NCBI GenBank assembly: GCA_950295325.1
Contig: OX485803.1
Coordinates: forward strand, 54,389,554 to 54,453,553
Source: Polytrichum commune
Lineage: Eukaryota > Streptophyta > Polytrichopsida > Polytrichales > Polytrichaceae
DNA: 64,000 nucleotides
Direction: 5' to 3'
The translations under genes and the position numbers were made by a program. The notes beneath the pieces were generated by a model. That model did no database searches. It was not told the DNA's origin and saw nothing but the letters and a program-made list of their open reading frames with translations. This document shows, one piece after another, positions 3,410 to 62,139 of this stretch; positions within the stretch are counted from its first letter, which is position 1, and the number at the start of each line of letters is the position of its first letter.

Positions 3410-5520
3410 TGGGCAATATATATCCATCAAGCTGTATCTTTTATGACCCTTCAACAATTTGTTGGCAGGTCATGGTAGAGAGCTGAGTAATCTCTTGCAA
3501 CTTGGAGGCACATATAGAGTAGAGGAGTCCATAACCGATCATTTAAGAGATTCTACGCCTAATCTTGAGAAGTATAAGGTGGTGCAAATTTTTTGCATGT
3601 AGGAAGATAGAAATCATGAGGATTGCAATTTTTTTTTATGATTTTATTTCTTAAATTGAAATTAATGTAAATTTTTGAAGCCAAAAGTTGGTTTGCACAT
3701 ATTATCAATGTCTAGAGTTTGCCATAACTGCTCCATTGAACCGCTCATTTTAATTGCTCATTACTCCTCACTTTAGCACTCAATATTATGATATGTGTCA
3801 TGGCACTAGTGATTACGGCCTGCTCAAAATTTAGCCCCAACCCTGTCAAAATTCCTTTACCCTTTAGATTGTTGATGGTGTCTTGATCGGGAATAGGTGC
3901 CTCTACTATGATTAACACTCAAATAGGATTACAGGTGAAGTTGCAACATTTGCAGCACTTGGACCATGCTCGGTCTATTTACCATTTAGGGCATATGTAG
4001 AAGGGACCCGTCTCTCATTGCCCTTAGTTTTTTGAGTCACCTTGCAACCTATGTACCTTGGAAACCCAACAAAACTCAGCTTTGTAAGGTTTGGAATTTA
4101 AGGTCGAACCACCGCCACATTTTGGTGTTCTCATAGTTGACTCTACATGCTTTGGTATTACATAGGAGAAAATAATGCAAAGATACAAGGTGAGGATGTA
4201 GATTTGAAGGTAAGTAGTAGTAAAAGTGTGGTAAGTAGACTTCAGTCGCTTACTTATCTTAATCGGACACCTATATTTGAGTGATGGGTGGTTATATTTG
4301 GCCAAGGCTAGGCACCCATCTCTTTGAGTTTGGCCCCAACCACTATACTCTAAAGTAAAAACCTAATCACTCTTATTATAGCACGAACAATTATATTTTT
4401 AAACAACGTATTTGACATCATAATTAGCATTAGAGGCACCAAAGTATTCTAAACATACTCACTTGAGACAAATTAGCCACCTACATGTGGGGTTGTATTT
4501 ATTGCAAATCCCTTGACCATGGTAATAGTGGTGGGGGCCCAACTCAAGAGGTGGGCATCTAGCCTTTGCTGTTATTATATTTGAGTAGTTATGGGTGGTT
4601 AAGTGATAGGTGCAAATCTAAAAACATACACCAAAAATACATGTATGTAAAGGACATCAATGGACTAAATCGTCGAAACTTGTTATCCATTCTAGGCTCA
4701 ATAATTTACATGATTGGGGAGACCCATGTGACCTTTGATGATTCGTACCAATTTGATATTAGCTCCAAAATTTCACGGCATTGATCTTGGCTTCCTCAAA
4801 TACATTTGCCGATGCATAGAAATTCCAACCTCGTAAATCCAATTAGTATAAGGGTATGCGGGTGTTGTGCAGTTACTTTTCTTAATTAAACCCCTATATA
4901 TGATTCGGTGAGGATCAAAGAGCAAACATCAAAAAGGTCCACATTCTCAAAAGAGATCAGACTACGTCTTCTAATATCAATAACTTCTTTACATTCAACA
5001 ACAAACACAATTAGGAGGACCCATGTATCCAGTTAAGAAATTGAAAAACGTGTACTTCTAATGGCCATAAATAAAGCATGGGAGGTCCGATTCTCAATCC
5101 GATTTCTCCATATGGTTCATCGTAGATTTGCAAATGCAACATGAATTTTGTTGTGTAAATCTAATTTGTGGAAGTTGGTGAGCATGAAAAAGGAACCAAA
5201 TGAGACCCATACTCCTTACCTTAACGTAACCAACAACAATAACAAAAACTTAATCAAAACTAGAAGTCACTTCCCTCAACCGCATCAAAGACATTCGGAA
5301 CTGGGAAAGTTGGCAGCAATTAATGCAAGGAGGCAGAGCGAGAGATGAGTCGATGGGGTACTTGTCCCACAGTTTGTCATGCCCGCCGCAGTAGATTATG
5401 TGGATATCCAACCTAAAGTAGGCTTCTATCCATTGGGATGCGTCAATGAGTACGAAGGAGGCGTCAGCAGGCGATCATCACATGTTGAATTTCTGGGCAG
5501 CGAGACTGGCGGGTGCACTC
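3410..5520. other. intergenic, with dispersed-repeat segments
   Basis: Upstream flank of the first hevein-barrel gene. It holds a copy of the dispersed repeat described at 44866-45180 (pieces near 4250-4300 and 4580-4800, landmarks ATATTTGAGTGATGGGTGG and GGCTCAATAATTTACATGAT). No convincing coding region. Confidence 0.55.
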
Positions 5521-5529
5521 TATATAAAT
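5521..5529 (+). promoter_or_regulatory. TATA box of hevein-barrel gene A
   Basis: TATATAAAT in a GC-richer context, conserved exactly in copy B (26948-26956). The start codon lies about 890 bases downstream, so a long leader, probably with an intron, is implied. Confidence 0.55.
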
Positions 5530-6420
5530 ATATATGTTGTCACAGGGGTTGCCACAGACCGATCCCATTCATCTGTGTAAGTTATCCGAGGTGGGCTGCC
5601 TTTCCTTTCTTTCTTTCCAGATTTGTCCGTCACCAAGGTTGGCCTTCAATTTTCATGGATCATGGTTCTTCTACACCAGCTTAATTATAGATGCATCATG
5701 CTTCTCGATCGACCGGGTTTGTCGATGAATTGTACAAGTTACAGGAGTCTGAGCATGTCCATAGCCAGTGGTCATTCAAGTAATGAGTAAATAGCAGGTT
5801 GCTGCTCCTTGATTCTCAACCCAAAATTGTCACAGAGTAGTGTCCGTTTGCGGATAGCTAGGATCACAAGCACTCAATTCTAGATCTAAACACTTGACGG
5901 GTTTCTGATCAAGGTGCCAATTAATATGCTGCTGTCTTGATGAATCAAACTTATGGATCTGATATTGAGCCACTACACCCCCAACATCTAGCTAAGTCAG
6001 AAGTTGGGAGCATCTGTGTCTCTGAGCAATCGGCATGTCCAATATCTGCCTTCTGAAATAATCCATCATGTCTGCCCCATCAACCTGAGCTAGACTGAGG
6101 CAGATCTGCCTTTGTCGTCCCTGAAACTGTTGATCAACTAAGTGAGTATATCACAAGTTTGATTCGCATGATATATAGGGATAGATCACCACCACTTTGA
6201 GACTAATATAGTTTTCGTCCAAGCTGCTAGCGAATGGAACTCTCATCGTATCCCAGCCGACTAACGAGCACATGATGCTTTTTGGGGATAAGTCTGGGTT
6301 ACACTTGATCGGATGAAAATTATGTTCACGTATGCCTTGTTTGCTTTGAGGCTGAGCAATAACATGGACTCGTGATGTTCTACAGAAGACGACCGAAGGA
6401 GAACGTCGAGGCCTGGAGCG

Positions 6421-7868
6421 ATGGGTGAGATCATGAGAGAAAAGATGACGGTGTCCTCTGGTGCATTGGTGGGGATGATGTTCTTAGTAATCCTGCAGCT
6501 GTTGCAACTGAGCGCAGCTGAGCAATGTGGGACGCAGGCTGGGGGTGCATTATGCCCAAACAACCTGTGTTGCAGCCCATTTGGTTGGTGTGGCAACACA
6601 ATAGATTACTGTGGAGGTGACTGCCAAAGCCAATGCAGTGGAGGCGGAGGAGGCGGAGGAGGCGGAGGTGGAAGCACCGGGAAGGCCTCGTATTACACTG
6701 CTCCATATGTTCGTAAGTTTGCAACCCCGGCTAGACTCGTCGTGCCTCTTCAACCGATAGCTTGAACTTGAGCTTGAGCTTGCATGAAGTTTGGTTGCAT
6801 TCATGCTTGCAAGGTTGGTGGGTCAAGGTCAAACAATTTGAGGCCGACCTTCCCTGCATGTGCATGAGATGATGAAGTTTTTCCTGACGGTTGCCAATCC
6901 ACGCTTCTTCTTTTTTGGAGGGGGAGGGGGTGATTTCCAAGATCGTGTTCGAAGTACTTGAACTTGTAGAATTTTCAAGTTTGATGATCTGGACAAGTTC
7001 ATGTTATTCGATATCTCTTAGAAAGCTCCATCATTTTATGCCTGGCACACGTATGAAGCTGGCTCTTCAAGTTCGATGTCCACAAATTCAAGTTTGGGCT
7101 CGAACTTGAAGGTCAATCTAAAGGAGGAACCAAAGCTCCACCATTTGAGGCACATGTTAAGGTCCAAATTCTTTTGCCTTGGCCCACAAAAGTTGCAAGG
7201 TTGAGCCCAATGAGCTCAATTAGCTATGTGTGGCCGGGCCAGCTTGAGTCGACAAGCTGGGCGATTCTTGGGAGGATGCTCATGCAATTCAAAGTCATTG
7301 TCCTTTGCTTGGAGGCTATCTCACGGTTGACAACTTGAGATCCAAATTTTACTCAAAGAACTTTGCACTCATTTCCGGGGATTGTGAACTGTACTAAATG
7401 TACATTTTGAACTTGATCAAACCTCCAAACCTTTAACTCTTGTTGCATAAATTGTTCAATTTATGTGTATAATCTAACCCGGCTTACCCTCCTGTGGCGG
7501 TGATAAAATTTATGTTTTGTTGTGCTATAGCCTCGGCGTGCTATGGATATGACCCAAACCAATTCCCTAACAACCAATACTTCGCGGCTGCGGGCGACGG
7601 CAACCCCAACATATGGAACAACGGAGCCAATTGCGGCCGCAACTACCGAATCAGTTGCCAAGGTAAGGGCTGCCGCGGCGGGCCGATCACCATCAAAGTT
7701 GTGGACCGGTGTCCCAACGGGTGCAGTGGTGGAAGGGCATTCGATCTCTCCCAAGCGGCCTTCAGCGCCCTCGCGGACCCGAGTGTGGGTGTCATCTCTA
7801 TCTCCTACTCTCTTGCTTCTTCGCACGAGGGTGACGAAGAGCACCAGGTGCCGCTCAGCTTCGACTAA
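6421..7868 (+). CDS. secreted hevein + double-psi-barrel protein (copy A)
   Basis: Two exons, 6421-6712 and 7531-7868, joined in phase 1 across a GTAAGT...TATAG intron; 209 residues. Residues 1-33 form a signal peptide ([11 protein letters not shown]). Residues 34-72 are a hevein/chitin-binding domain with all eight Cys and the sugar-binding aromatic pattern FGWCGN..DY. A Gly linker follows, then from about residue 86 an RlpA-like double-psi beta-barrel ([57 protein letters not shown]) of the barwin/plant natriuretic peptide/expansin group. Barwin-type proteins are extracellular and often defence-related; binding to chitin or cell-wall glucan is inferred from the domains. The expansin HFD motif reads AFD here. 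The tail [17 protein letters not shown] follows the usual family end. No sign of decay. Confidence 0.88.
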
Positions 7869-8794
7869 TCCTTACAAGTTTCAACCGATCACACAAGGAC
7901 CATAACATAAACCAGTAACAAATATATCAGCACTTTTTCCTGGTCATGGTATGCAGGTGTGCTTGACTTAAAAAAGAATGAAAAAGGAGGGCCGGTTTGT
8001 ACATGTAAGAGGGGGAAGGTTTAGTACCTACTTGAAAGTATGGGTGCAACTACAATCGTAGTAGTGTCAGTACGTACTCGTGTAGTGATTAATGATAGCC
8101 TTGAGGTTGTACAAACTCGAGAATGACTATGGTAGCTTTTCTTCTACCTTGTCTACTCTGCAATATGGAAGCCGAAAAAAGCCACTAGGAAGTTCACTTG
8201 TACAGAAACTCGCTTTGCAATGGGACTCACTAAGTCTAACTTGGGTTAAGGGCTGTGGATCAACCACGAGTGTGGATGCGACAACATGCCTAAGTTAAGG
8301 CAGGGCTAAATAAAGAGGCTCGCCATGCATCAGGGCGGCTTTATTTTCTGCACCAGTCGACCTATAAGGTTTCTGAGAGAACGTGGATATCATTCCGAGA
8401 GGACGTGAGGCAAATATGATACATAGTTGTAGTAGAATCACAGTATACCCATCAGAGTCATGACTGATGTGTATTGTTCATAGGTTAAAACTATGACATG
8501 TCCTGCGGCTGCTAACTTTTGACCTCAAAGACAGAAGACTTTGGACACCATGGTGAGCATGAGCTGTTGGCTTTTGCAAACTGTGGGAGAAACGTAAATG
8601 AAGAGTTTTTTGTATTATGTAAGAACATCATTGTATTGCATATCCACTATGTTTGCCCAATGACCTTGTTCTCAATCATCATCCTCTAAATTTTAGTATT
8701 AGACATGCGTTCACATTGAAAGAAACAGCTTCACCTCAACATCCGAACAACACTTGAAAGGGTCTTCCTTCCTTAACCATAGTACACGGGCCCT
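7869..8794. other. 3' flank of hevein-barrel gene A
   Basis: Non-coding and closely matched by 29282-30195 in copy B. The duplication junction lies near 8790-8800, where copy A ends at CTTCCTTCCTTA and LINE sequence of copy B begins. Confidence 0.7.
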
Positions 8795-13297: not shown

Positions 13298-13643
13298 TGC
13301 TCCAATATAATCAAGCTGTATCTTTTATGATCCTTCTACAATTTGTTGGCAAGTCATGCTAGAGAGCTGAGTAATCTCTTGCAATATGGAGGCATATATA
13401 GGGTAGAGGCGCCCTACCAATTCACTACAAATGAGCCCCCACGAAGAGGAGTACTAGCCATGACTCACAAAAAAATCCACACCTCTAAGAACATAACCAA
13501 AATCCCCACCCCAACCCACATCTCTCCTTCATTGTAAGCTTTCAAAATATCCAACAAATCATTAACACCAATCCTCATTATGAATCTATATATGCCATCG
13601 CACTCACATGACCTACACCTCAAACAACACGATATTCAATATT

Positions 13644-14369
13644 TTGAGAGAGTGGGATCGTCTCAAAATAATATTGGCCATTTGGACACCTAAAAGTCAT
13701 GTTAGGTTGATAAATACTATATTATACTTCAGACGCATAGTTTCCATTAAATTGAGAGTATGTTAAGCTGGGAAATCGACTCATTTAGGTTGAGTCGACC
13801 TAAATGAGGACAATATTTTGTCAATTTAGGTTGAGTCGACCTAAATGAGGACAATATTTTGTCAATTTAGGTTGAGTCGACCCAAATGAGGACATTATGT
13901 TGTCAATTTAGGTTGAGTCGACCCAAATGAGGACATTATGTTGTCAATTTAGGTTGAGTCGACCTAAATGAGGACAATTATGTTAGTCAATTTAGGTTGA
14001 GTCGACCTAAATAAGGACAATATGTTAGTCAATTTAGGTTGAGTCAACCTAAATGAGGACAATATGTTAGTCAATTTAGGTTGAGTCAACCTAAATGAGG
14101 ACAATATGTTGTCAATTTAGGTTGAGTCGACCTGAATATTAAGAATACTATATGTGCAACCATAATATACATGCCAATTCAGGTCAAAACCTGAACTGTC
14201 ATCCTAAATGGTCAATTTTAGGTAGCACATCACTCCGCAATTTACGGCGGAGTATCAAATGTTATTTTTTTACTTGTACTCTACAACTTTCTTGTGGTTT
14301 TCATTTCATTCTTGGATTAATAGTTTGCTTTATGTACTCTCAATTCACTGGAAAACTCTCATTTTAATG
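13644..14369. mobile_element. 726-bp insertion carrying a 41-bp tandem repeat
   Basis: Inserted in the endonuclease part of the LINE between direct repeats AATATT (13638-13643, 14370-14375). Removing it and one AATATT restores an unbroken frame (..DIQYCVIPKII..) leading into LGGDF. Weak inverted ends (TTGAGAGAGT; right end, reversed, AATGAGAGTTTT) suggest a non-autonomous DNA transposon of unknown superfamily. No coding capacity. Confidence 0.65.
13781..14137. repeat. nine-unit 41-bp tandem array
   Basis: Units begin near 13781, 13821, 13862, 13903, 13944, 13987, 14029, 14071 and 14112 (period 40-43). The core TTTAGGTTGAGTCGACCTAA is a near-palindrome with a GTCGAC centre, followed by ATGAGGACAATATG. 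Confidence 0.92.
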
Positions 14370-15599
14370 AATATTGTGTTATACCCAAAATTATAACCCA
14401 AATCAACATCCTAATAAAACATCATCCTGCACACAAAGCCATATTAGGAGGAGATTTCAGGAGAGACATCCTCATACATGGACATGTTCACGAAGGCAAA
14501 CCCCAAGCCCTCACTCGAGAAAATAGGGACTGGGCACAATGTATGCAGACCCTAATCCTACACCCATTCCAAAACATTGAAACCGTCTCCCTGTAATGAG
14601 GGCACAACTACTCATCCATGAGTCTCATTAACAGATTCTATACAACCATGCCAAATCACACACACATAACATACACAACCCACTCGGATCACTACCCCGT
14701 TAGCCTAGACCTCAGTCCCAATACACTAGTCCAAAAAGTCGATAACCCTACAAAACACATCTCAAGAATTACATACCCCATACCACCAATACTCATTTAG
14801 TTCCAAGGAGCCACCAACCTTGCCACGCAATCACTCACTCAAAAATTACACACTCCACACCTTCATCATACAAACTGGGAAGAAGCTGAAGAAAAATTTC
14901 AAGACATAATGAATACACTAAGCACATGCATTGAAGAGATGTGCCTTAACAAACAAACTCCCCACACACTATCATACAGAGCCCACCAACAAGGAGGCTT
15001 CTTCCCACGCAAACAATAGAAACTATAGAAACACCACCTTAAGATTTACAATAGTACTAAAAAATCAATCTGAACAACACACTCCATACCATTCGCAAGT
15101 TAGCTAAGTCACCCGGATATCCAACAACTATACACACTACAAAATACGACCATCCTTCCCACCCCCGCTAATGACGCAACAGTAAAGAAATGGATTGAAG
15201 GACTTGCTATCATAGGTTGTACAACTAAGATAGAAACCCACAAATTCACCACCAAACAAACCACCATCAATCATAAAAAAATTTTAAAAAAAAAAAAAAA
15301 AAAAAACCATCACAAACTATAGGCTTCTACTAAACACTAAATCTAAAAATATACATAAAAATAATTAAACCGTCAATAAACACACCCCTAGATTGCCTCA
15401 AAGACACAGATGACAACATACTTACAAATCCAATAGATATAAAACAAGAAATCCTACAAACACAATAGAGTTCCTTTAACATGATAGCCCCTCTATGTGA
15501 CGACCCCACTAACCATCCCACACTATGCCAATGCGAAGTCTAGAGATACTCATGGCTTGACCAAGTAGGATACATCATTGAGAAACGAGCCCCCCATAA

Positions 15600-17148
15600 C
15601 TCCAGAATATCGGAGAATTTCTCCCGAGAAGTGTTTGACAATAAGAAATTAGCCAGGGGAAAATCTCCGTGACCTGACAACATCCCAAACGAAATCCTCA
15701 AGGCCCTCCACCCAACCTTTCACAATAGATTATTTCTCTTCTTTCGACAATGCTACCACCAGAAAAACATACCCCAATATTGGAAACATAGCAAAACAAT
15801 ACTTCTCCACAAAAAGGCGACCCACTACTACTCACTTATTACAAACCTATTGCTTTGGTCAAGATTATTTATAAACTCTACACTAGCACACTGCCCTCCT
15901 CACAAGTTATGGCGAAAAACACAAAATAATACACTTTAGTCATGAAGGTATTAGACCACAAAGAAACACAACTAGACAAATTCAAATGATAATAGCAACA
16001 TTGGAAGACGTCCGCCTAACTAATAACGACAAATACCTTACATGTATAGACTTTAGAAATGCCTTTAGATCTATAGACCATGCAAGAATCCTTGCACTAA
16101 TGGAGGATCTCGGATATCCCTGAGACGCCGTTGAATTAATACGTAACATCTACACAAACTCAACCACCTCCTTCCATGGTAACCGCTTCGGAACAACCCC
16201 ATTCATCAAAATTAATAAAGACACCATCCAAGGCGACACCCTAAACCCCTACCTCTTTATCATATTCCTAGACTTACTCCTCTGATAGCTAGAAAAAGAT
16301 AACATAGGATACCACTTCAAGACATCATCAACTACTTGTAACACCATAGCATATGCCAATGACCTCGTCATCCTCACCGATAACATAACACATAACTAGG
16401 CACAAATCCACAAACTCCAAAAAATCTCAGATTGGGCATATCTAGACCTTAACCTCTCTAAGTGCGCGACCACAGGATGTCCAAACAAATCAAACCTGAA
16501 ACCTACTACCTTTAAAGCATACATACAAGCACAACATATCCACCTCAAAATTAAACCTTTCCTACTCTTACATAAAACAAACCATACACATATCTTGGTA
16601 TCCACCTAGTCCCCTCACAAAATGGAACATCCAAAAAAAACACCACCATGGAAAAAACCGAAAAACAAAGCAAACTATTAATGACATCCCTTGCCACAAT
16701 TAAACAAAAAATTCACATCCTAAACACAATAATAAAACCAAAATTAGCCTACACCTACTATGCAATCCCGTTCTCTAAACCAAACATCAAGAAACTAGAC
16801 AAAATCCTCAGTAAACTAACTAAAGATATATGTAATCTACTCAATAGCACAACCAACATACTAACCCACCCCTCCAACGAGGACTTTGGCATTAATTCCA
16901 CTTCCATCGTCCCCAATTACATCAATTATATTGGTAAACAACTACTAAACGCCCTTAACAACCAAGGCCAATTAGGCCAAATCTACCAAGGTCTAACCAA
17001 ATACATCATAGCAAAATATGGAGGCTCCTACCACTTCCCATGCCTAAAGTATCAAGCATGTGCAAGATCACTCATAGCCCGCACATTATACTTACTTGAA
17101 AGGGAATATGAAATTCATGTGCATACCATCATCAAAAGCTTCCCATAA
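15600..17148 (+). pseudogene. LINE reverse transcriptase region
   Basis: In-frame pieces of a LINE-type RT, interrupted by stops: NIPNEILKALHP, the DFRNAF-like segment near 16050, GDTLNP, IAYANDLVI (catalytic YADD read as YAND) and the thumb (16648-17148, TIKQKIHILNTIIKPKLAY). In the living element this would copy the RNA onto nicked DNA. The catalytic-site change and the stops make it inactive. Confidence 0.75.
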
Positions 17149-17899
17149 AATAGTGAGTAATAGAACTTGCATGATACAAACCACAGGCTATGCCTTCTTC
17201 TCCCAAGACCAAAAATCAACCACTAAAAGATACCTCAATAAACCTTACACATACGACATCACTGTCCTCAACCAAATCCAAAACCCAAACACTAACCAAA
17301 TCTTATCCCTTCAGAAATCCAAACAAAAATTCAAAGCTGCCCCAAAGCTAATCAAGGAAGCCCTGGCACAAGCCCAATTACTATTCCCACATAACCCACC
17401 CACAACCCCCAACCCTCCCTCACAACAAGTACCAACATACACCCCACCCACAAACACCAATAACCAAGTGGACCCCACAAGCAGAAAACCAATACAAGTC
17501 ATAATAAACACCAAAACTACAACATATAAAGATAAATGGGGAGCAAAAGCCATAAAACAACACTACCTATGCCAATGAACCACCCACCCAATTAGCATGA
17601 TAAAGTGTGTAGAAGCCTCACTACTCTTTTACCATGATAATACCACCCTAGACCACAACATATTCATACTCCACAAATTCCTACAAAACCAACACCCTAA
17701 CCACATACAACGCATGCATAAACTTTCTGCAATCTAAGGACCAAAGATTAATCCACCCACCCATCATAGCCCCAAACCTCAGACTAACCACCAAGGAATG
17801 CAACCCAGATAAAGATATCATCGCTACCAAACCCAACATACAAATACAAGGGACAAAATCCAATAGTTATGACCAAAGTGGAGCATACTTTTTAACCAT

Positions 17900-18580
17900 G
17901 CCACTCACAAGGCTACAATGGCTATGGGAAAGATATAACTAAAATCAAACGCACCTTATGCTCCACTTCTTAAACCCCCCGCCACAAGACTTTGCCACCA
18001 AAATTTTATGGCTAACCGAAAGATATATTACAATCCTCCCGAAAAGAAAACCAAAAAGGAAAACCTCAAATAACATCCACCAAACCCTACACTCTTCCAC
18101 CTTGCAAGCCCTAGAAACTTACAATATTACCCACTCATATTACTCCTCGCCCCTCACACGTCCAACAACATTCACTCAATACAACTCCCCACACAAAACA
18201 GACATAATATTCAGTTTGACAAGACTTGCACACTCGTCAAAGTGGAAAGGCAATGGCCTAACCCAACCCCCATACCTCAAAACTGCTCTAACATCAATTC
18301 ATTGGGCCCGCATAGCAGCCCATGAAAATTACAACACCACAACCATCATCATAATCAACCTTAAAGAGAACCCCCTCCCCATCACCCATGCAAAAATACA
18401 CAAGATAGTAACCATTCCACCTAACACCATACAATACAATTCCACATCGGAATGGCCAAAATACCTACACCAATTAGAAAACCAATACACCACCATATTG
18501 AGCATAAACAATCAAAGTCCCCCACCAGGCAACCCACAGATACCTAACAACCAACATACTTGGACTATATAATATTAAAG
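17900..18580 (+). pseudogene. extra LINE domain between RT and RNase H (methyltransferase-like?)
   Basis: Open over most of its length (17958-18572). Order: LQWLWERY, FATKILWLTERYITILPKRK, DIIFSLTRLAHSSKWKGNGL, QPPY (18264-18275), a helix TALTSIHWARIAAHEN, a hydrophobic strand TTTIIIINLKEN, then IVTIPPNTIQYNSTSEWP and a last strand TTILSI. The first LINE copy keeps the same end (ITILILNQNDW, IANIPPNAL, LTTIVCVHS). The layout of an XPP(Y/F) motif, a helix, a hydrophobic strand often ending in W, and a closing strand recalls the PCIF1-type N6-adenine methyltransferase core ((N/D)PP(F/Y)). This is an inference from pattern only; here the first motif residue is Gln. Confidence 0.45.
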
Positions 18581-18739
18581 TCAAATCATCTACACCAAAA
18601 CACCCCCCCCCCCCCCCTTAAGAAAAAAATGAAATGTTCCCACGCATGGCATAAAACCCCAAATTACAATCACTCAGAAAGCAACCACCCAACACAACCC
18701 CTACCAATAAAACTCTACAATACCCACCCCCTTAAATTC

Positions 18740-18990
18740 AAACCCCAACAATGCATATACACTGATGGATCATTTATACCCCCTGACAAAAATGGCATAG
18801 GCAATACAACTCGATCATGTGTATATTGCCCCACCAACAACATTTGGATTGTGGAGAGACTCCCAAGTCTACAAAATATCCTCAGAGCCGAACTAAACGC
18901 TATCCTAATAGCAATCCAAGGTACACAACACCATACACAAGATACCCACATCTTTACATATAGCCTTAATAATATATACCTTACATAACC
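18740..18990 (+). pseudogene. LINE RNase H domain, second copy
   Basis: CIYTDGSFIPPDKNGIGN, AELNAILIAIQ and IFTYSLNNIY align with the first copy. The second acidic position reads Tyr here (IFTYS against IFIDS), so the active site is damaged. Confidence 0.7.
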
Positions 18991-19117
18991 ACATATGACA
19001 TTCATCATCCCAACACAACCACCCGGATAAATTACTCATTGCCACTATAGTCAACCATATAACCTAGTCCACACATAAAATCATAGAGCACACACAAGCA
19101 TAATAGACAATGAAATC

Positions 19118-19570
19118 ATGGATCAACTAGCAAATGATGAAGCCCTCCTAGACAAACCCGCCAACACCCCCAAGATATATAGAGCCCATACTATGCCATA
19201 TTGGCTCAATGGGGTCCCAATAGGTATCCACACGGGTGCTATACGCAACCTACAAACATACATCAACAAGAAACACAAGACTCAAGAATTAAGACTAGCC
19301 AGATCAAAATTCACATACATAGACAAATGGACATCCAATGACCAAATCAACCACGAACTCTTCAACCAATTTTGGAAAAACCCTGAGACCACAAATGCCC
19401 AAATCACACAAACTCTAAAATTCCGATATGCCCAGTATATGGGTAACCACCATAAAAATAACTTTTGGCCTAACTTACACCCAAACCCGAATTGTATACT
19501 ATGCCCTAATAATGCCATAGACACATGGCCACACTTACTTTCTACATGCTCAAACCCCAACATAAAGTGA
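19118..19570 (+). pseudogene. LINE post-RNase H segment with zinc-finger-like motif
   Basis: A 150-residue open stretch ending in CILCPNNAIDTWPHLLSTC, a C-x2-C...H-x4-C arrangement typical of the end of many plant LINE ORF2 proteins and probably involved in nucleic-acid binding. The first LINE copy has the same motif. Confidence 0.7.
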
Positions 19571-19899
19571 TTATGTACAGCATGCCATAATAAAGTAGTC
19601 CACCAAATCGTGCATACACTAAAAATCAAATAAACATACGAGATACTACACACTCGTAAACGCAGGCAACCAAAATTCTAGATCCCAAGATAACACAGTT
19701 CCACAATGGTTATTCCAATGCACATGCTCCACTATACCATGTGCATGCCTAGCCACACTTAGACTGGACATATTATGCATACTAGGCGCCCCCATGGATA
19801 ACCAACCCCCAACGCCAGCCTCACCAAATGTCATACAATTCATTGAATTCACTTATTGTCACGGCAGATTCCCAAACACCGCACATAGAAAAAAAATAT

Positions 19900-20159
19900 T
19901 GGAATCAATTTGAAATAAGATTGCACAGCATAGACATCAAAGGTTTATGAACAATGTTTGTAGTGACATGGTCTCATTCTTTCTTTGCTTTGCATTTTAT
20001 TGTTTTTGTTTTCTCTTCATTGGTTCACACAAACAATATGGGATAAGTCTTATTTCTCTTTGGACTAGCATGATAGCTTTATTTTAATCTTAGTTTTTCT
20101 CATACCTCTTTCATTTTATTTCTATTGACTAAAAGCAATCTAATGCTCTACCCTCTACA
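19900..20159 (-). repeat. copia 3' LTR
   Basis: About 260 bp, direct repeat of 23147-23415. It shares blocks such as CTCTTCATTGGTTCACACAA and GCAATCTAATGCTCTACCCT. Confidence 0.85.
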
Positions 20160-21878
20160 CTCCCACTTTGCAAATATTCAAAGGGTCTCACTTGGACGCA
20201 TTTCATTCATCCTTCATTCCAACGCTTGTGCCATCCTTTATGAATACCACGTCTTAACTTTTTATGATCTTTTTAATTTCTAAACACATTACCCAATAGG
20301 CCTTAGTCTCTTCACAATAACCCAAAAACAAACATTTTGTACCCTTTGCATCGAGTTACTCATTTGTTCATCTGACACCATTACGTAGGTGACGCATCCA
20401 AGCACATGCATATGTGCAATGCAAGGCCTCCTTCCGCTCCACACTTCCTTAAGCGTACTGGAACCCAATGCCCTTGTTGCACAACAATTTTGTGTGTAAA
20501 CCGCATTAACCACCATTTCCGCCCAAAAATGATTTGTCGAGGTTTTGAGCATGATACATGTTTTTTGCCATCTTCACGATCATACAATTCATACACATCC
20601 ACCACTCCATTTTGTTGAGGCGAATACTGGGTAGACGTTTGCTTCTAACCCTTCAAAAATGATTGAATGCCTTGGAAATAAACTCTCCGTCATTATCCAA
20701 TTGAAACGTTTTGATTTTATGCTCTGATTGTGTTTCAACAAGTGCCTTGAATTCCTTGAATTTTTCAAAGAAACCTCCTTTAAATTTCAATATATATAAT
20801 CATACCTTCCTTGAAATATCATCAGTGAAGGTTACAAAATATCTTGCACCACCCATGAATGTAGTCCTTATGGGACCACACACATCGGGATGCACGATTT
20901 CCTGAGGTTTGGATGCTCGCCTTCCCCCCTCGTTCAAAAACACACCCCTATGTTGTTTGCCTTCAATGCACGCTTCACAAAGCACCGAGGATATGGAACA
21001 AGAAAATTTTCCAATGTTCATATTACTTACTATGTTTTGAAAGGTATGAACATCCTTCACGTTCAAATGGCCAAGGCGGCGGTGCCAAAGTTCAAGTACG
21101 ATATCTCCTATAGGAAAATCCACCAAGTTGCATTCGCGTGGCGCAATTGGAATGGTTTTACCATCGCAAGTTTTCAAAATATATTCATTAGGTTGAATTA
21201 GACTTTTAAACCATTCGACACAAGTTTGCTCACCGAGAACAAATTGACATGCAATTTAGATACGTAGAACACATCTTTGATCCAAAATTGGTTGATTTTA
21301 TTTTCCAAGATTGCTTTCACGACAATGGATCCCATTCCGATAGATTGGACAACGATATTATCACCCAAATGTATATTTCGTGGAGTAATTACCTCATACA
21401 TGTCCAATGTGGCCCTATTCGAAGCTATATGTTTGAAGGCTTATGAATCCATGATTCACTTACACATGCTTCTGGAATGTGCTTTATTAGGCATCACAAA
21501 TGCATAGTCATCATCGACCTTCACATTCTTTGTTTGTTTTTCCTCCTTGTGTCATCTTTTGTATAAAAAACGCGCAATGTCGTCCGGTTTCTCATAATAA
21601 AATACGATTTTGTACCTTGGCGTGAAAATGAATTGTCGTCTTTGCTTTGTCACAACACCATGGCAACATCTTCACCATGGGGCTTCTTCTTCTTGCCCTT
21701 CGACATCTTGTGCATCAAACACGCCGTCACGTAGCCAATCATAAGTTTCTTCATTGGAATCATCTTCGTGGCGATAATCAAGTATTCATACGATGCCGAC
21801 AAACTCTCGAACAAGGTCATGACAATGTTTTTGGCTCTCATAGGTACCTCCAAACACACAAGTTGATCTGCGAGCGCC

Positions 21879-22433
21879 CACGGGTAGATCACTCTAAGGC
21901 ATTTTTGTGCACCACGTGCGGCTGGGGGTTTTTTGTTTTGGGGCTATTTACCTTTCAAGGGTTGAATTAAAGCCTCCCTATAATTACTTAAATTTAAAAA
22001 ATGGCCCATTTGTTTGCACCCTTCCATTACTTATATTATCCAAGTCACTGCAATTTTTTGTACTCTATATTTCTTTTAAGTAATAAACGGGCGTGGGGAA
22101 GACGACCCCAACGACAGTGCGTTCCCTTTTCATCCATTTTTGGACAGACGGAAATCTCAATTATCATCCATCGCCGTGAGTCCTAAACCCATTTACATAC
22201 CATACTAAACATACCTTCTAGGATCCTTATCTTCAGTCCCTATATTAATTTTACAAAAAAAATAATGGCCCACGTTTTATGTCCATCTAACTTACTTATA
22301 ATGGGATTGTCTACATTTAATGGCCCCTTCATTATTTGGAATTCCTTTATAATTTTTATTTCAAAAATGATTTTAATCCTCTCTATATTATGCCGCACGT
22401 TGTTTTTAAAATGCACTAAGTGATCTACCCGTG
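21879..22433. mobile_element. MITE, 8-bp target duplication, CACGGG family (copy 2)
   Basis: A 555-bp element with ends CACGGGTAGATCACT on both sides (inverted), running on to ACGTGCGG, and an exact 8-bp duplication CGAGCGCC (21871-21878, 22434-22441). Same family as 1009-1417 by its ends, but with a different interior. It inserted into the gag part of the copia fossil, so it is the youngest layer in this nest. Confidence 0.88.
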
Positions 22434-23146
22434 CGAGCGCCTTGATCTTGTTGACGTGGTCCAACAAGTTGTCGACCTTTTGCATCTTGTATGTAAAAAA
22501 ATTGCGGCGAATGAAGAGAATATTATATAAACTCTTCGTCTCATGAATGTTGCAAAGGGTTTTCCATGCCTCCATGGATCCTTTATAACTCTTGATAAGC
22601 ACAATTAAGTTGTCCGCCAAATTGAGACCGATAACTGGCATGGCCTTCTTGACAAGTCTTTGATACTCCTTCAATACTTTGGAATTCGTATTGGAAGGTG
22701 GAGGTTTCTCGGATCTGTTCACAATATCCCAAGATCTATGGATGCCAACAACATTTTGATTTTAAACTTTCAAAGGTTGAACTTCCTTTCATTGAACTTG
22801 TCAATGATTCTAGCAGCCTTGCTCTTAAATGATGTAATCGTACACTCGGATATACCCCTAAAATATTCAAACAATATATTTTTCACCCTAAATGCTTCAA
22901 GTCTAAACATCTCCAAACCTCTCAAATAAACCTCTCAACACTCAAGAAACTCAAATCACGTGCTCTTACATCAAACATACATTCAAGCAAAAGCAAAAAC
23001 AAAAACAAAGAAATACTTACAACAACAAAATGCGCCGTCAGACACCTCCAACGCTCTGTAGTGCCAACTCCTCAAGATCCACTTCGCAAACTCAAATGCA
23101 ATCAAATTTCTAGGCACTTCACTTGCATGGTGGGCCCATAACCTTT

Positions 23147-23415
23147 TGGAATCAATAGAAGATAAAATTGCATAAGCATAAACACTTATACAAAGGCATA
23201 TGAACAATGCCGGGAGTGAGATGGTCTCATGCTCTCCTTGTTTTGTTTATTATTGTTTTTCTTCTCTTCATTGGTTCACACAATCAATATAGGATAAGTC
23301 TTATTCCTCTTCAGACTAGCATATATGGTAGCCTTATTCTAACCTTATTATTTCTCATGCCTCTCCCATTATATTTCTATTGACTACGAGCAATCTAATG
23401 CTCTACCCTCTACCA
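23147..23415 (-). repeat. copia 5' LTR
   Basis: About 269 bp, with the primer-binding site three bases beyond its end. Confidence 0.85.
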
Positions 23416-23421
23416 AAAAAA

Positions 23422-23700
23422 TCACTAAATACAATCCACTCACACAAACACTTTAAAAAACTGCCGATTGGCAAATTAACCCTGTCATCACCATCACATC
23501 AGGTGTCAGAAGGGCTATTCACAAACAACCAATTAAAGACTTAGAAAGACTCAAAATACCCAAAAATGAGATCAAAACAGTTATGAAACAATTGGACCAA
23601 ATTGTCATTAAATACCTCACATACCTAATATTAAACAAAAGGAAACTCGACAACAAACAAACCCCTGTTGATCCCCCCTAGATGTTAGGGATCGCGCTTT
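23422..23700 (+). pseudogene. LINE C-terminal domain, 3' part
   Basis: The LINE frame resumes after the copia element: TKYNPLTQTL, VITITSGVRRAIH, then IVIKYLTYLILNKRKLDNKQ and a stop near 23700. The same domain, better preserved, lies at 58435-58870. A 3' UTR of about 145 bases follows to 23846. Confidence 0.75.
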
Positions 23701-24162
23701 TCTTGAAAACTAAAGGACCCCACCTTCTGAGAGGGAGGAAGTATCCTTACGGTGATGCTTGGTTAAACATGAACATGGTATAGAGGAACATGCTCCCATT
23801 TATGTCGGTGTAAAAACCAAAACCCTGACACTACTTTTATTTATTTTAGAGGTGCCCATAACCAATCACTTAAGATATTTTACGCCTAATCTTGAGAAGT
23901 ATAAGGTGGTGTAAGTTTTTCGCATGTAGGAAGATAGAAATCACGAGGACTAAATTATTTTGGTAATTTTATTTCTTAAATTTAAATTAATGTGATTTTT
24001 TGAAGGCAAAAGTTTGACCAATCATATTATCAATATCTTGAGTTTGCCGTAACCACTTATTTTAACCGCCCATTTCTCCTCACTGTAGCACTCAAGATTA
24101 GGACATGTATCATGGCAATAGTGATTATGGCATGATCAAAATCCAATCCCAACCTTGTCAAA

Positions 24163-24865
24163 AATCTAATACTGAAACATGTAGAATTTTCCCATGACTT
24201 CTACAAACTCATCTTTCCTATAGATATGAATCAGACTTCATCTCCAGAAGCTCAAATGTGCATGCATGCTACTAAAGACGTGACCTTTACTTCATGATTT
24301 CTACGAACAAGGAGACTAGATTCTCTCAAACGACTTGTGGAGCCAGAGCTCAACATTAACCCACGAAATCCATGCACCGAACTTGGACTACATTTCACAA
24401 CTTCTTCATTCGAACTCTACTCATTGAAACACATTGTCATATGTATCCACACTGCCTTCACAATAAGAACGTATATCCATGCCTTACAACACTCCAACTG
24501 CGAGCAGAGTAACCACTTTATTCCATCAAAAAAGGTCCATCAGAGGCGAGCTTGGAACTTGTTTCCGACACATGGAAAGCTCCAAGCTATCCTGTAGCAA
24601 ACATTGGGGAGAGGGAGAGAGAGAGAGAGAGCCAGAGAGAGGTAAGTAGGGTCCTTTGTATTCTACCAGGGGTCGATTTTTGGCATGTTTGGTTACCATG
24701 TCCGTTCTTGCTCACAATTTTTTGGGTAAAGAAGAGGTGAGAGACGGAGGTTGTTTGAACAAGTGTCATCCAATAATCAGAGAAAGAATTTGGTAACTAA
24801 TGAGTGAGATAGCAAGTGAAAGACACAAAAAAAAGTTGGTAAAAAGGAAGGGTTATCAGAACCCT
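24163..24865. other. stretch present only in duplication copy B
   Basis: Has no counterpart in copy A near 3850. It contains a GA-rich microsatellite (24609-24632) and no convincing gene. It may be an insertion here or a loss in copy A; I saw no clear terminal repeats. Confidence 0.5.
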
Positions 24866-26947
24866 ATATATAGATTGCCAATGGGGTCTTGATCGGGAAT
24901 AAGCACCTCTACTATAAGTTACACTCAGGTAGGATTACAAGTGAAGTTGCAACGGATGCAGCACTTGGACCATGCTCGGTCTATTTACCATTTAGGGCAT
25001 ATGTAGAAGGGGCCCATCTCTCTTTGCCCTTAATTTCTTGCGTCATCTTGTGACCTACAGTAGGTACCTTGCAAACCCAACAAAACTCGGCTTTGTAAGG
25101 TTTGCAATTTAAGGTCGAACCACTGCCACATTTTGATGTTCTCCTCATAGTTAACTCTACATGCTTTGATATTACATAAGGAAAAGAATGCAAAGATACA
25201 AGGTGAGGACATAAATTTGAAGGTAAGCAGTAGTAACAGTGTGGTAAGTATAATTAATTAGCTTACTTATCTTAATCGGACGCCTATATTTGAGTGATGG
25301 GTGGTTATATTTGGCCAAGGCTAGGCACCCATCTCTTAGAGTTTAGCCCAAACCACTATACCCCAAGGTAAGAATCCAGCCAATTCTACTATAGCATGAA
25401 TATTTCTTATTTTACGCAACATATTTGACATCATAATTAGCATCAAAGGCCCCAAATTATTCTAAACAAACTCATTTGAAATGAATTAGCCACCTACATG
25501 TGGGGGTCTTATTTTTCACAAACCCCTTTACCTTGGTAATAGTGGTGGGGCGGCCCGACTCAAAAGACAAGGGCATCTACCTTTGACGTTATTATATTTG
25601 AGTAGTCATGGGTGGTTAAGTGATAGGTGCAAATCTAAAAACATACACCAAAAATACATGTATGTAAAGGACATCAATGGACTAAATTGTCGAAACTTGT
25701 TATCCATTCTAGGCTCAATAATTTACATGATTGGGGAGACCCATGTGACCTTTGATGATTCATACCAATTCGATATTAGCTCCAAGACCTCGCGGCATTG
25801 ATCTCGGCTTCCTTAGATACATTTGCCGATGCATAGAAATTCCAACCTCGTAAATTCGACTAGTATAAGGGTATGCGGGTGTTGTGTGGTTACTTTTCTT
25901 AATTACACCCCTATATATGATTCGGTAAGGATCAAAGAGCAAACATCACAAAGAGCAAACATCATAAAGGTCCACATTCTCAAAAGAGATCGGACTACGT
26001 CTTCTAATATCAATAACTTCTTTACATTCAATAGCAAACACAATTAGGAGGACCCATATATCTAGTTAAGAAAGCGAAAAAACATGTACTTCCGATAACC
26101 ATAAAATCAATAAAGCAAGAGAGGTCAGATTTCTACATAGTACGGTTCAACTGCATACGGTTCATCATAGATTTGTGTATGCAACATGAGTTTTCTTGTG
26201 TAAATCTAATTTGTGGAAGTTGGATAACATGAAAAAGAAACCAAATGACACCCACACTCCTTACCTTAAGGTAGCCAATAACAACAACAAAAACTTAATC
26301 AAAACTAGAAGACACATCCATCAATCACACCAAAGAGATTCAAAATTGGAGAAGTTAGCAACAATTAATGGAAGAAGGTAGAGCGAGAGATGACTCAATG
26401 GGGCCAATGTTCAAGAATGAAGACCTCATATGAGTTTGAATTCATTTTAAAGGGCTCGTCTAAATCCAAGATGCCAATCTAAGAATATAGAAATGAAATA
26501 CAAAAATCATATTAAACTTGTGCATGAATTATATGATACATGTTTCTAGTACAATGTGAAGAATTAAGAATCAACCATCTAACTTCACTTCTTGTAGTGA
26601 CAGTGACAATATCCTACGCTTGTTGGTTCTTGTGGTGGGCAGATTATATTGAGGACTTCAAGTGATGTCTTCATTTTCAATTTGGGATTGCGTTTTGAAG
26701 GGATGTTTTGAGAGAGGTATATTTTGTAGAGCCAAATCGCGTTTCAAGGGCATTGATGACTTCTATCTTGAACACTGGATGGCGCACTTGTCCCACACTT
26801 TGTCATGCCCGCCGCAGTAGATTATGTGGATATCCGACCTAAAGTAGGCTTCTATCCATTGGGATGCGTCAATGAGTACGAAGGAGGCGTCAGCAGGCGA
26901 TCATCACATGTTGAATTTCTGGGCAGCGGGGACTGGCGGGTGCACTC
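24866..26947. other. upstream flank of hevein-barrel gene B
   Basis: Matches 3870-5520 of copy A, including the dispersed-repeat pieces (25260-25310, 25590-25800). Bases 26397-26783 have no counterpart in copy A. No coding region seen. Confidence 0.6.
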
Positions 26948-26956
26948 TATATAAAT
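26948..26956 (+). promoter_or_regulatory. TATA box of hevein-barrel gene B
   Basis: TATATAAAT, identical to that of copy A with the same surroundings. The start codon is about 890 bases downstream. Confidence 0.55.
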
Positions 26957-27842
26957 ATATATGTTGTCACAGGGGTTGCCACAGACCGATCCCATTCATC
27001 TGTGTAAGTTATCCGAGGTGGGCTGCCTTTCCTTTCTTTCTTTCCAGATTTGTCCGTCACCAAGGTTGGCCTTCAATTCTCATGGATCATGGTTCTTCTA
27101 CACCAGCTTAATTATAGATGCATCATGCTTCTCGATCGACCGGGTTTGTCGATGAATTGCACAAGTTACAAGAGTCTGAGCACGTCCATAGCCAGTGGTC
27201 ATTCGCGTAATGAGTAAACAGCAGGTTGCTGCTCCTTGATTCTTAACCCAAAATTGTCACAGAGTAGTGTCCGTTTGCGGATAGCTAGGATCACAAGCAC
27301 TCAGTTCTAGATCTAGACACTTGACGGGTTTCTGATCAAGGTGCCAATTAATATGCTGCTGTCTTGATGAATCAAACTTATGGATCTGATATTGAGCCAC
27401 TACACCCCCAACATCTAGCTAAGTCAGAAGTTGGGAGCATCTGTGCCTCTGAGCAATCGTCATGTCCAATATCTGCCTTCTGAAATAATCAATCATGTCT
27501 GCCCCATCAACCTGAGCTAGACTGAGGCAGATCTGCCTTAGTCGTCCCTGAAACTGTTGATCAACTAAGTGAGTATATCACAAGTTTGATTCGCTTGATA
27601 GGGATAGATCACCACCACTTTGAGACTAATATAGTTTTCCTCCAAGCTGTTAGCGAATGGAACTCTCATCGTAATCAGCCGATTGAGGAGCACATGATGC
27701 TTTTCGGGGATAAGTCTGGGTTACACTTGATCGGATGAAAATTATGTTCACGTATGCCTTGTTTGCTTTGAGGCTGAGCAATAAATTGGACTCGTGATGT
27801 TCTACAGAAGACGGCCGAAGGAGAACGTCTAGGCCTGGAGCG

Positions 27843-29281
27843 ATGGGTGAGCTCATGAGAGAAAAGATGACGGTGTCCTCTGGTGCATTGGTGGCGATGA
27901 TGTTCTTAGTAATCCTGCAGCTGTTCCAACTGAGCGCAGCTGAGCAATGTGGGATGCAGGCTGGGGGTGCATTATGCCCAAACAACCTGTGTTGCAGCCA
28001 ATATGGTTGGTGTGGCAACACAATAGATTACTGTGGAAATGACTGCCAAAGCCAATGCAGTGGAGGCGGAGGAGGCGGAGGTGGAAGGACCGGGAAGGCC
28101 TCGTTTTACACTGCTCCATATGTTCGTAAGTTTCCAGCCCCGGCTAGACTCGTCGTGCCTCTTCAACCGATAGCTTGAACTTGAGCTTGAGCTTGCATGA
28201 AGTTTGGTTGCATTCATGTTTGCAAGGATGGTGGGTCAAGGTCAAACAATTTGAGGCCGACCTTCCCTGCATGTGCATGAGATGATGAAGTTTTTCCTGA
28301 CCATTTCCAGTCCACGCTTCTCCTTTTTTGGAGGGGGAGGGGGTGATTTCCAAGATCGTGTTCGAAGTACTTGAACTTGTAGGATTTTCAAGTTGGATGA
28401 TCTGGACAAGTTCATGTTATTCGGTATCTCTTAGAAAGCTCCATCATTTTATGTCTGGCACACGTATGAAGCTGGCTCTTCAAGTTCGATGTCCACAAAT
28501 TCAAGTTTGGGCTCGAACTTGAAGGTCAATCTAAAGGAGGAACCAAAGCTCCACCATTTGAGGCACATGTTAAGGTCCAAATTCTTTTGCCTTGGCCCAC
28601 AAAAGTTGCAAGGTTGAGCCCAATGAGCTCAATTAGCTATGTGTGGCCGGGCCAGCTTGAGTCGACAAGCTGGGCGATTCTTGGGAGGATGCTCATGCAA
28701 TTCAAAGTCATTGTCCTTTGCTTGGAGGCTATCTCACGGTTGACAACTTGAGATCCAAATTTTACTCAAAGAACTTTGCACTCATTTCCGGGGATTGTGA
28801 ACTGTAATAAATGTACATTTTGAACTTGATCAAACCTCCAAACCTTTAAGTCTTGTTGCATAAATTGTACAATTTATGTGTATAATCTAACCGAGCTTAC
28901 CCTCCTGTGGCGGTCATGAAATTTATGTTTTGTTGTGCTATAGCCTCGGCGTGCTATGGGTATGACCCACACCAATTCCCCAACAACCAATACTTCGCGG
29001 CTGCGGGCGACGGCAACCCCAACATTTGGAACAACGGAGCCAATTGCGGCCGCAAGTACCGAATCCAATGCCAAGGTCACGGCTGCCGCGGGGGGCCGAT
29101 CACCATCAAAGTTGTGGACCGGTGTCCCAACGGGTGCAGTGGTGGAAGGGCATTCGATCTCTCCGAAGCGGCCTTCAGCGCCCTCGCGGACCCGAGTGTG
29201 GGTGTCATCTCTATCTCCTACTCTCTTGCTTCTTCGCACGAGGGTGACGAAGAGCACCAGGTGCCGCTCAGCTTCGACTAA
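27843..29281 (+). CDS. secreted hevein + double-psi-barrel protein (copy B)
   Basis: Exons 27843-28125 and 28944-29281; 206 residues, same intron position and phase as copy A. Signal peptide to about residue 33, hevein domain ([20 protein letters not shown], then YGWCGN..DY) with eight Cys, a Gly linker a few residues shorter than in copy A, then the barrel ([48 protein letters not shown]). Changes between the copies include SPFGW/SQYGW in the sugar-binding face and [24 protein letters not shown] in the barrel. Both frames are intact, so both copies may be functional. Role as for copy A: probably extracellular, wall- or chitin-binding; the exact activity is unknown. Confidence 0.88.
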
Positions 29282-31123
29282 TCCTTACAAGTTTCAACCG
29301 ATCACACAAGGACCATGCCATAAATCAGTAACAAATATATCAGCACTTTTTCCTGGTCATGGCATGCGGGTGTGCTTGACTTAAAAAGAAAGATAAAAGA
29401 GCGCCGGTTTGTGGATGTAAGAGGGGGAAGGTTTAGTGCCTACTTGAAAGTACGGGTGCGACTACGATCGTAGTAGTGTCAGTACGTACTCGTGTAGTGA
29501 TTAATGATAGCCTTGAGGTTGTACAGGCTCGAGAATGACTATGGTAGCTTTTTTTCTACCTTGTCTACTCTGCAATATGGAAGCCGAAAAAAGCCACTAG
29601 GAAGTTCACTTGTACAGAAACTCGCTTTGCAATGGGACTCACTAAGTCTAACTTGGGTTAAGGGCTATGGATCAACCACGAGTGTGGATGCGACAACATG
29701 CCTAAGTCAAGGCACGGCCAAATAAAGAGGATCGCCATGCATCACGGTGTCTTTAATTTCTGCACCAGTCGACCTACAAGCATTCCAAGAGAACATGGAT
29801 ATCATTCCGAGAGGACGTGAGGCGAATATCATACATAGTTTTACTAGAATCGCAGTATACCCATCAGAGTCATGACTGATGTGTGTTGTTCAGAGGTTAA
29901 AACTATGACATCTCCTGCGGCTGCTAACTGTTGACCTCAAAGACAGAAGACTTTGGACGCCATAGTGAGCATGAGCTCTTGGCTTTTGCAAACTGTGGGA
30001 GAAACGTAAATAAAGAGTTTTTTGTATTATGTAAGAACATCATTGTATTGCATATCCACCATGCTTGCCCAATGGCCTTGTTCTCAATCATCATCCTCTA
30101 AATTTCAGTATTAGACATGTGTTCACATTGAAGGAATCAGCTTCACCTCAACATCCAAACAGCACTTGAAAGGGTCTTCCTTCCTTATACATAGTACGCA
30201 GATAAACCAAGATTTAACCAAGATAAAGATTTTGAGCTGAAAGCTCTGCATGGTGGGGAAATGGTGCTGAAACATTTTCAGGTTAAGCAGTATTCCCCAT
30301 AGATTGCAGTAACAACAATAAAACTTTGTCAATAGAACAGAGTCAAAATACAACTATGCCTGCAACCCCTGAAGGCCATACTTGAAGCTTAAAAAGGCAA
30401 GAGGCGTCTATGTAACTCTAAGACAAACTCACGTCATGGAAAAGTTGTGATTAAACTTGTGAATGGTAGTGATAAAACATTTCAAGAGTATGAGACAATG
30501 AGGCTGAGATATGCCCTTGAATGGAACCGTTATCTTTTATGAGGGTGAATAAAAGCAATCCACAAATTGATACAGAGATGGCACACCTCGCTGCCATAAA
30601 CCTTCTAATAAGATTTAGCGGAGTGCCTTTATAAAACTACATAGGTGGTTAACACACTTTGAATGGTCTATCACAACTAAGGAAGAAGGAAAAAGGTCTA
30701 TTCTGCATCCTTTCTTTTACCCTATGTACCAAATGAATATTTAAAGGACACTAACAACTAAAACAAGAACGGTGTGTCATAGCCTCTAACTCGTCTGGAC
30801 TTGGCAGAGAATAGATGGGATACTCAGTTCTTGGGGCACAGCAAAATGAATATACATTGGCCTTCAGACCTCTGCTGAAAGGGTGGACTCTTTCTGGCAA
30901 TTCCCTGTTCCAAAGCACAGGTTCCATGAAAGTTAAGTAGGCTCATGCATCTTCTGTGTAACGTTTGGCAAAAAGTCCCACAAAATGATCTCCAATAATA
31001 CACAAACAAGAACTCCAGTTATAATGTGCTACAGCATTAAATATATCAGAAATTGAAACTATGGACTGCATCCTCTATTTACAATGCACCAACAATAGTG
31101 CATCCAACATATGCCATCAAAGC
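29282..31123. other. flank between hevein gene B and the S-acyltransferase gene
   Basis: Up to 30195 it matches the 3' flank of copy A. From there to 31123 the sequence is single-copy here, AT-rich and without a convincing frame; it probably includes the 3' UTR of the minus-strand S-acyltransferase gene. Confidence 0.5.
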
Positions 31124-60733: not shown

Positions 60734-60788
60734 GAGGGTGAGGAGGGGGGGGGGGGGGGAGATTAGAAACCCGACCCCTATAGATTTA
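60734..60788. repeat. 55-bp spacer with poly-G run
   Basis: Short spacer between the two hairpin elements, with a long G run (about 60744-60759); it ends in the 8-bp duplication TAGATTTA (60781-60788) of the second hairpin. Confidence 0.7.
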
Positions 60789-61958: not shown

Positions 61959-62139
61959 TAGATTTATGGCTTATTCATCTCGGTTTATACTTTAGCCTAA
62001 TCTAGGGTCTCCAATCCGAATTAGGTATTGATATGGTTTAAAATGATAATCCCTAGGTTCTACATAGTAATCAATGTTTTCACCTTTCCTTTGGTAGGTG
62101 TTGTGAAACTTCACCCTTGGGAAAAGGTTAGGGCATTGG

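Follow-up and report, generated by a model that had tools for sequence, protein, structure and literature searches.

The window, the whole stretch of 64,000 nucleotides of Polytrichum commune DNA that was analysed, contains a broken copy of a LINE, whose pieces, with frame changes between them, run on the plus strand from 13442 to 19895 and are followed by a further piece at 23412-23678. They were traced by tblastn with the protein of L009, a copy with a long open frame. Remains of an APE-type endonuclease lie at 13442-15262 (L009 residues 291-654), interrupted at 13621-14378, and a frame-broken reverse transcriptase (RT) region lies at 15337-17145 (residues 669-1278). A chromodomain-like stretch at 17532-17665, with approximate limits, is placed by the match of L009 residues 1294-1461 at 17189-17680 and by comparison of the alignment A3 with the PDB. 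It is followed by a conserved stretch at 17730-17942, which in the long-frame copies reads ECNPDKD...WLW, and by a predicted PCIF1-like methyltransferase-fold domain at 17970-18512, for which the relation to PCIF1 is taken from other copies of the element. Remains of an RNase H extend from a YTDGS motif at 18758 to about 19150, and those of a zinc knuckle and a restriction-like endonuclease, placed by tblastn, by motifs read by eye and by the alignment A5, from about 19490 to 19895. The last C-terminal piece (L009 residues 2218-2305) is located some 3.5 kb downstream and is probably part of the same LINE copy, split by an insertion. Near both ends of this gap (19895-23412) is a direct repeat, 20070-20158 and 23325-23413 (87%), a pattern as for an inserted LTR-type element. 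Within the interrupted LINE there is also a tandem repeat of a near-palindromic unit of about 41 bases (13783-14155).

An open frame of 209 amino acids at 17943-18572 holds the features that had drawn attention to this LINE, namely QPPY (18264-18275), the hydrophobic strand TTTIIIINLKEN and TIPPNTIQY (18411). All of these are present as the initial annotation had described them. The segment, which had been placed between RT and RNase H, is indeed located there; it is longer than had been supposed, since the related region spans about 17730-18512 (L009 residues 1482-1747), and it does not separate the two enzymes alone, as the chromodomain-like stretch lies between them too. QPPY falls on the site of the NPPF tetrad of PCIF1, and a degraded FSLTR (18210-18224) stands where most other copies have FGSxG and PCIF1 has FGSRG. 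The end of the segment was said to recur in a first LINE and its duplicate, and both were found by tblastn on the minus strand. The first LINE (566-2805) comprises the end of the PCIF1-like domain, RNase H and the C-terminal region, and its domain end at 2805-2629 is 53% identical to L009 and contains ITILILNQNDW. The duplicate of this end, at 12698-12537, has 45% identity and is also seen in the direct repeats D2/D9. Other repeats in the window are two stretches of several kilobases, at 3520-8270 and 23847-29682, which share blocks of 79-98% identity at a distance of about 20-21 kb. Nested inverted-repeat arms that are 86-99% complementary lie at 59357-60724, and at 60780-61967 a pair of 569-nt arms, 50 nt apart, is 98% complementary.

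Taken alone, the window copy gives no Pfam match at all, and its structure is predicted with a pLDDT of 33.6, too low to lend support to any fold. The genome (407.8 Mb searched, in 64 contigs) contains at least 150 relatives of the translated segment, as all 150 candidates that were scored, from 1998 in the first look, match it (E 6.1e-137 to 2.8e-46), a recurrence far beyond chance. Many of them sit inside long open frames. The window lies on contig C1 (54389554-54453553), one of the contigs C1-C7 of 42-78 Mb; contig C8 has an intact rbcL, whose best PDB matches are Rubisco chains of the plant type, with a frame behind it that by eye resembles accD, which points to a land plant, perhaps a bryophyte. 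Fifteen long-frame LINE copies were considered, and in seven of them the frame measures 2038-2422 amino acids. In L009 (2305 amino acids) and L012 (2123 amino acids), an APE nuclease, an RT, the PCIF1-like domain and an RNase H are found in frame. The Pfam families PF03372, PF14529, PF00078 (residues 831-1099) and PF00075 are all above their cut-offs in L009, and PF14529 is just under it in L012. An RNase H also lies behind the domain in L024-L031, L048 and L050, while shorter pieces end before it. In the C-terminal region, C-x2-C, H-x4-C and RPD...E...KY can be read by eye in all four copies aligned in A5; as for the restriction-like part, a search of the PDB at E up to 10 gave no matches. 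LINEs of the Dualen/RandI type are described as encoding both an APE and a PD-(D/E)XK-type nuclease (PMC3636483, PMC4640811, in the parts available). The element resembles them in that one LINE frame comprises APE, RT and RNase H, with the CCHC and RPD...E...KY motifs read by eye at the C-terminus, and on architecture alone it may be called a Dualen-like LINE. Ahead of the APE domain, in the N-terminal part, GD[IV]xxNPGP is present in 12 of the 15 loci (L009-L018, L020 and L022), each of which has between one and three copies. We take this to be a 2A-like peptide motif, through which the N-terminal part may be released as the protein is translated.

The roughly 70 residues that precede the domain were compared with the PDB as an alignment of 11 rows (A3). 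Four CDYL2 sequences are matched at E < 0.001, with an E of 2.6e-4 for the CDYL2 chromodomain. At E up to 10, 24 of the 30 sequences matched are chromodomains, the other six having E >= 0.31. The Pfam Chromo family is found in 4 of the 29 copies of the broad alignment A1 (best E 0.027). At the positions that we assume to be those of the methyl-lysine aromatic cage, the Trp of the second is invariant, the third, a Tyr in CDYL2, is aromatic in none of the 11 rows, and the first falls outside the alignment. A chromodomain-like stretch likewise lies behind the RT and ahead of the PCIF1-like domain in L009, L025 and L026. Its presence in a LINE deserves attention because the reports of chromodomain capture by retrotransposons, in the texts available, concern LTR elements (PMC5348765, PMC6338049).

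Several lines of comparison converge on PCIF1. The Pfam family PF12237 (PCIF1_WW) scores 25.5 bits in L009 and 27.7 bits in L012, two frames of subfamily A, both under the cut-off of 31.1, and 48.5 bits, above it, in L025, a member of a second subfamily. At E up to 1, it matches 28 of the 29 copies in A1 (best E 1.7e-13, 51.0 bits). Chromo follows in 4 and GATase_5 in 3 of the 29, and among the 15 Pfam families found in these copies at this limit there is no methyltransferase family besides PCIF1_WW. A search of the whole genome with PF12237 put all 150 scored candidates above the cut-off, so that there are at least 150 such places (697 in the first look), and the same family has no matches in 14 control genomes. 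With the human PCIF1 stretch as sole query, 150 places were obtained from 158 candidates at a limit of E 10, three of them at E 0.001. The best match has an E of 1.6e-4 and 38% identity over query residues 31-128, the NPPF included. The part of PCIF1 used in these comparisons begins at about residue 296 of 6irv. Aligned by hhalign with human and zebrafish PCIF1, A1 gives a probability of 93.5, an E of 2.2e-7 and 28% identity over 130 columns, which span SPLxC, FGSxG, the place of NPPF and the region up to the following strand; for the alignment A4, the E is 7e-7. On rerunning, A1 scored 56.6 and A4 52.3; the highest scores among 100 column-shuffled versions of each were 20.9 and 23.6, and the reversed profiles reached 17.7 and 10.9. 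A PDB search with A1 gives one PCIF1 sequence at E 0.29 (limit 1), and one with A4, at E up to 10, gives both PCIF1 sequences (E 0.0081 and 0.2) and nothing else.

These comparisons show that the domain is related in sequence to PCIF1, the cap-adenosine N6-methyltransferase, and we infer that it has the PCIF1 methyltransferase fold. The proposal of a domain related to N6-adenine methyltransferases in this LINE family is thus borne out by Pfam, by the single-sequence search, by hhalign and by the PDB. It had been suggested to compare a profile of the segment with PCIF1, MT-A70 and Dam; PCIF1 was matched and the other two were not. MT-A70, Dam and other methyltransferase families do not occur among the Pfam or NCBIfam matches of the 29 copies. 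The likeness to PCIF1/CAPAM (PDB 6irv and 6irx; PF12237), at the 28% profile identity given above, goes together with clear differences: in the LINE the NPPF is replaced, the domain is part of a LINE protein, and within the L009 and L012 frames no WW family is found at E up to 1. A cellular PCIF1 of the host was not seen either. All places that were read, 63 of the 150 found with PF12237 (at the motif region) and 4 of the 150 found with human PCIF1, represent the same domain as in the LINE, a result that an intron-split gene could escape.

The place of the tetrad is where the element departs from PCIF1. In the hhalign alignment with A1, the NPPF of PCIF1 falls on HPPN of L025. The tetrad was read in 108 distinct copies, made up of 43 of the 150 places of the segment search, 63 of the 150 PF12237 places and 2 human-PCIF1 places. 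The duplicates L001, L048 and L050 were removed, L051-L054, which are without the domain, were left out, and L083, split by the aligner, was counted as His from its second row. In these copies, several of which are near-identical and which do not represent independent events, the first position is His in 86, Phe in 18, Tyr in 2, Leu in 1 and Gln in 1, the latter being the window copy, and Asn or Asp in none. The second position is Pro in 104 of the 108, and the fourth, a Phe in PCIF1, is Asn in 52, Asp in 34, Thr in 16, Tyr in 5 and Gln in 1; neither NPPF nor NPPY occurs. QPPY as a conserved catalytic motif is ruled out by these 108 copies, and a PP(Y/F) motif as a sign of catalysis is not supported. 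The initial annotation had suggested looking for Asn or Asp at the first position of younger copies. This expectation fails because the copies with long open frames carry His or Phe there, their tetrads reading FPTD, FPKD, HPTD, HPKD, HPPN, HPHN and HPHT. The QPPY of the window is best read as the result of decay, because the relatives of this copy have HPPN (L002), HPPD (L007 and L008) and HLPY (L004); it looks like a decayed HPPD or HPPY. The window copy also lacks FGSxG. Elsewhere the scaffold around the tetrad is well kept, FGS and SSPxTC being invariant or near invariant in A1 and aligned with FGSRG and ASPLNC of PCIF1. We take this FGS to resemble a SAM-binding motif.

What such changes do to related enzymes is known from the cellular proteins, as far as the available texts go. 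Methylation by METTL16 is lost in the N184A mutant and when the PP or the F of NPPF is altered; where PP or F was altered, RNA binding, too, was reduced or abolished (PMC7927073). The APPA and SPPG forms of PCIF1 are inactive mutants, and NPPF mutants are the usual inactive forms (PMC10544176). Drosophila PCIF1 has an H for the F of NPPF, a replacement that could account for the absence of m6Am, and in honey bees the change is from F to Y, m6Am being likewise absent (PMC9479742). The fly protein resembles the LINE domain in its altered tetrad and in m6Am being undetected in the fly; it differs in being a cellular protein, for which the available text of the same source reports no change of the first position.

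The domain is maintained by purifying selection, less strictly than the RT. Once saturated or near-identical pairs are removed, and with pairs that are not independent, the median dN/dS in subfamily A (11 copies) is 0.09-0.11 in three segments of the domain, compared with 0.17 before it, 0.19 in the chromodomain-like part and 0.37 in the linker behind it. In subfamily B (10 copies), the domain has 0.11-0.18, the stretch ahead of it 0.15 and the linker 0.47; for the chromodomain-like part, only one pair was usable. In a separate run, dN/dS was 0.11 for the domain (73 of 78 pairs usable), 0.04 for RT (13 of 36) and 0.05 for RNase H (46 of 55). Within subfamily A, the domain core has 80% identity and the neighbouring linker 44%.

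On the basis of this information, it is possible to outline a history of the domain. A PCIF1-type domain would have been captured by the LINE before the split of the two subfamilies seen here, the direction of the transfer being the presumed one. The N6-adenine tetrad would already have been altered by the time of this split, most simply to His-Pro-x-Asn/Asp, and the scaffold would since have been kept under purifying selection. Adenine methylation in the usual manner has presumably been lost. Nucleic-acid binding seems the most likely function, because a PCIF1-type domain is maintained without its tetrad. During target-primed reverse transcription, the domain may keep the RNA of the element bound to the LINE protein, and the part of the RNA that is held could perhaps be the capped 5' end. 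The reading that we propose, a captured PCIF1-type domain that now serves as a non-catalytic nucleic-acid-binding module holding the element RNA in a Dualen-like LINE, has in our estimate about an even chance of being right.

The explanations that compete with it draw on the same observations. If the domain were still a methyltransferase, with an altered active site (HPxN for NPPF), it would mark the mRNA cap, the cDNA or another target. This would agree with the conservation of FGS and SSPxTC at the sites of FGSRG and ASPLNC, with the purifying selection, with the Pro kept at the second position in 104 of 108 copies and with the precedents for the capture of methyltransferases by retrotransposons (PMC5890265, in the part available). 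The near-invariant FGS in particular would fit a SAM-binding protein and speaks against a non-catalytic reading. Against an active enzyme stand the first position, where Asn and Asp are absent from all 108 copies and where His, Phe, Tyr and Leu vary in a way unlike a catalytic residue, the fourth, where the Phe of PCIF1 is replaced by N, D, T, Y or Q in all 108, and the end of methylation in METTL16 on changing N184 to A, the PP or the F (PMC7927073, available in part). An active methyltransferase is in our view distinctly unlikely, and the marking of the element's RNA or DNA, which the initial annotation had envisaged, is unlikely in the form proposed, given the lack of Asn and Asp at the first position. 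The domain could instead bind no nucleic acid and serve, between RT and RNase H, only as a structural spacer or as a surface for oligomerisation. The missing catalytic motif would suit such a role, as would a dN/dS roughly double the values for RT and RNase H, and RNA binding is itself made less likely because the changes of NPPF in METTL16 also harm it (PMC7927073, in the available text). A spacer would, however, hardly account for a core at 80% identity and a dN/dS of 0.09-0.11 in subfamily A next to a linker at 44% and 0.37, and we consider it somewhat unlikely.

The resemblance to PCIF1 might also be convergent or an artefact of the profiles, the segment then being a lineage-specific domain that connects RT with RNase H. 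The window copy alone, which is without a Pfam match, the weak result of the broad profile A1 in the PDB (E 0.29) and the three places only at which human PCIF1 by itself reaches E 0.001 could be read in this way. Pfam, the single-sequence search with human PCIF1 and hhalign nevertheless converge on one region, and the shuffled alignments score less than half of the real ones, so that an artefact appears very improbable. Within the preferred reading of a nucleic-acid-binding module, it could be imagined that the dead PCIF1 domain reads the cap: it would tether the capped 5' end of the element's mRNA to the RT protein, from which cis preference and full-length copies would follow, and the chromodomain-like module next to it might direct the element on chromatin. 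PCIF1 binds the m7G cap; cap binding by the LINE domain becomes less likely because the available text of PMC10544176 credits it to the helical domain of PCIF1, and we regard this extension as unlikely.

Retrotransposons with captured methyltransferases have been described before, among them SymbioLINE-Dnmt and SymbioDIRS-Dnmt3 of Symbiodinium, KnitGypsy-Dnmt3 and Dam-bearing DIRS elements (PMC5890265, available in part). Those enzymes are of the cytosine or Dam type, whereas the domain considered here is a relative of a cap-RNA adenine methyltransferase without its catalytic tetrad. Orchid Ty3/Gypsy elements carry an AlkB m6A demethylase that is active in vitro (PMC9289625, also in part). They are comparable as plant retrotransposons with a captured domain of the RNA m6A system, and they differ in being LTR elements and in that the domain is an eraser, in contrast to the writer fold here. 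In the literature searched, as far as its texts were available, no report of PCIF1 in a LINE or another retrotransposon was found; an earlier mention is possible. The known captures are of cytosine and Dam-type methyltransferases and of an m6A eraser; next to them, PCIF1 as the origin of a domain in a LINE would be new. The kept scaffold together with the altered tetrad suggests that the fold is used for binding and not for marking, and the domain would offer a way of testing how a LINE protein recognises the 5' end of the RNA that encodes it.
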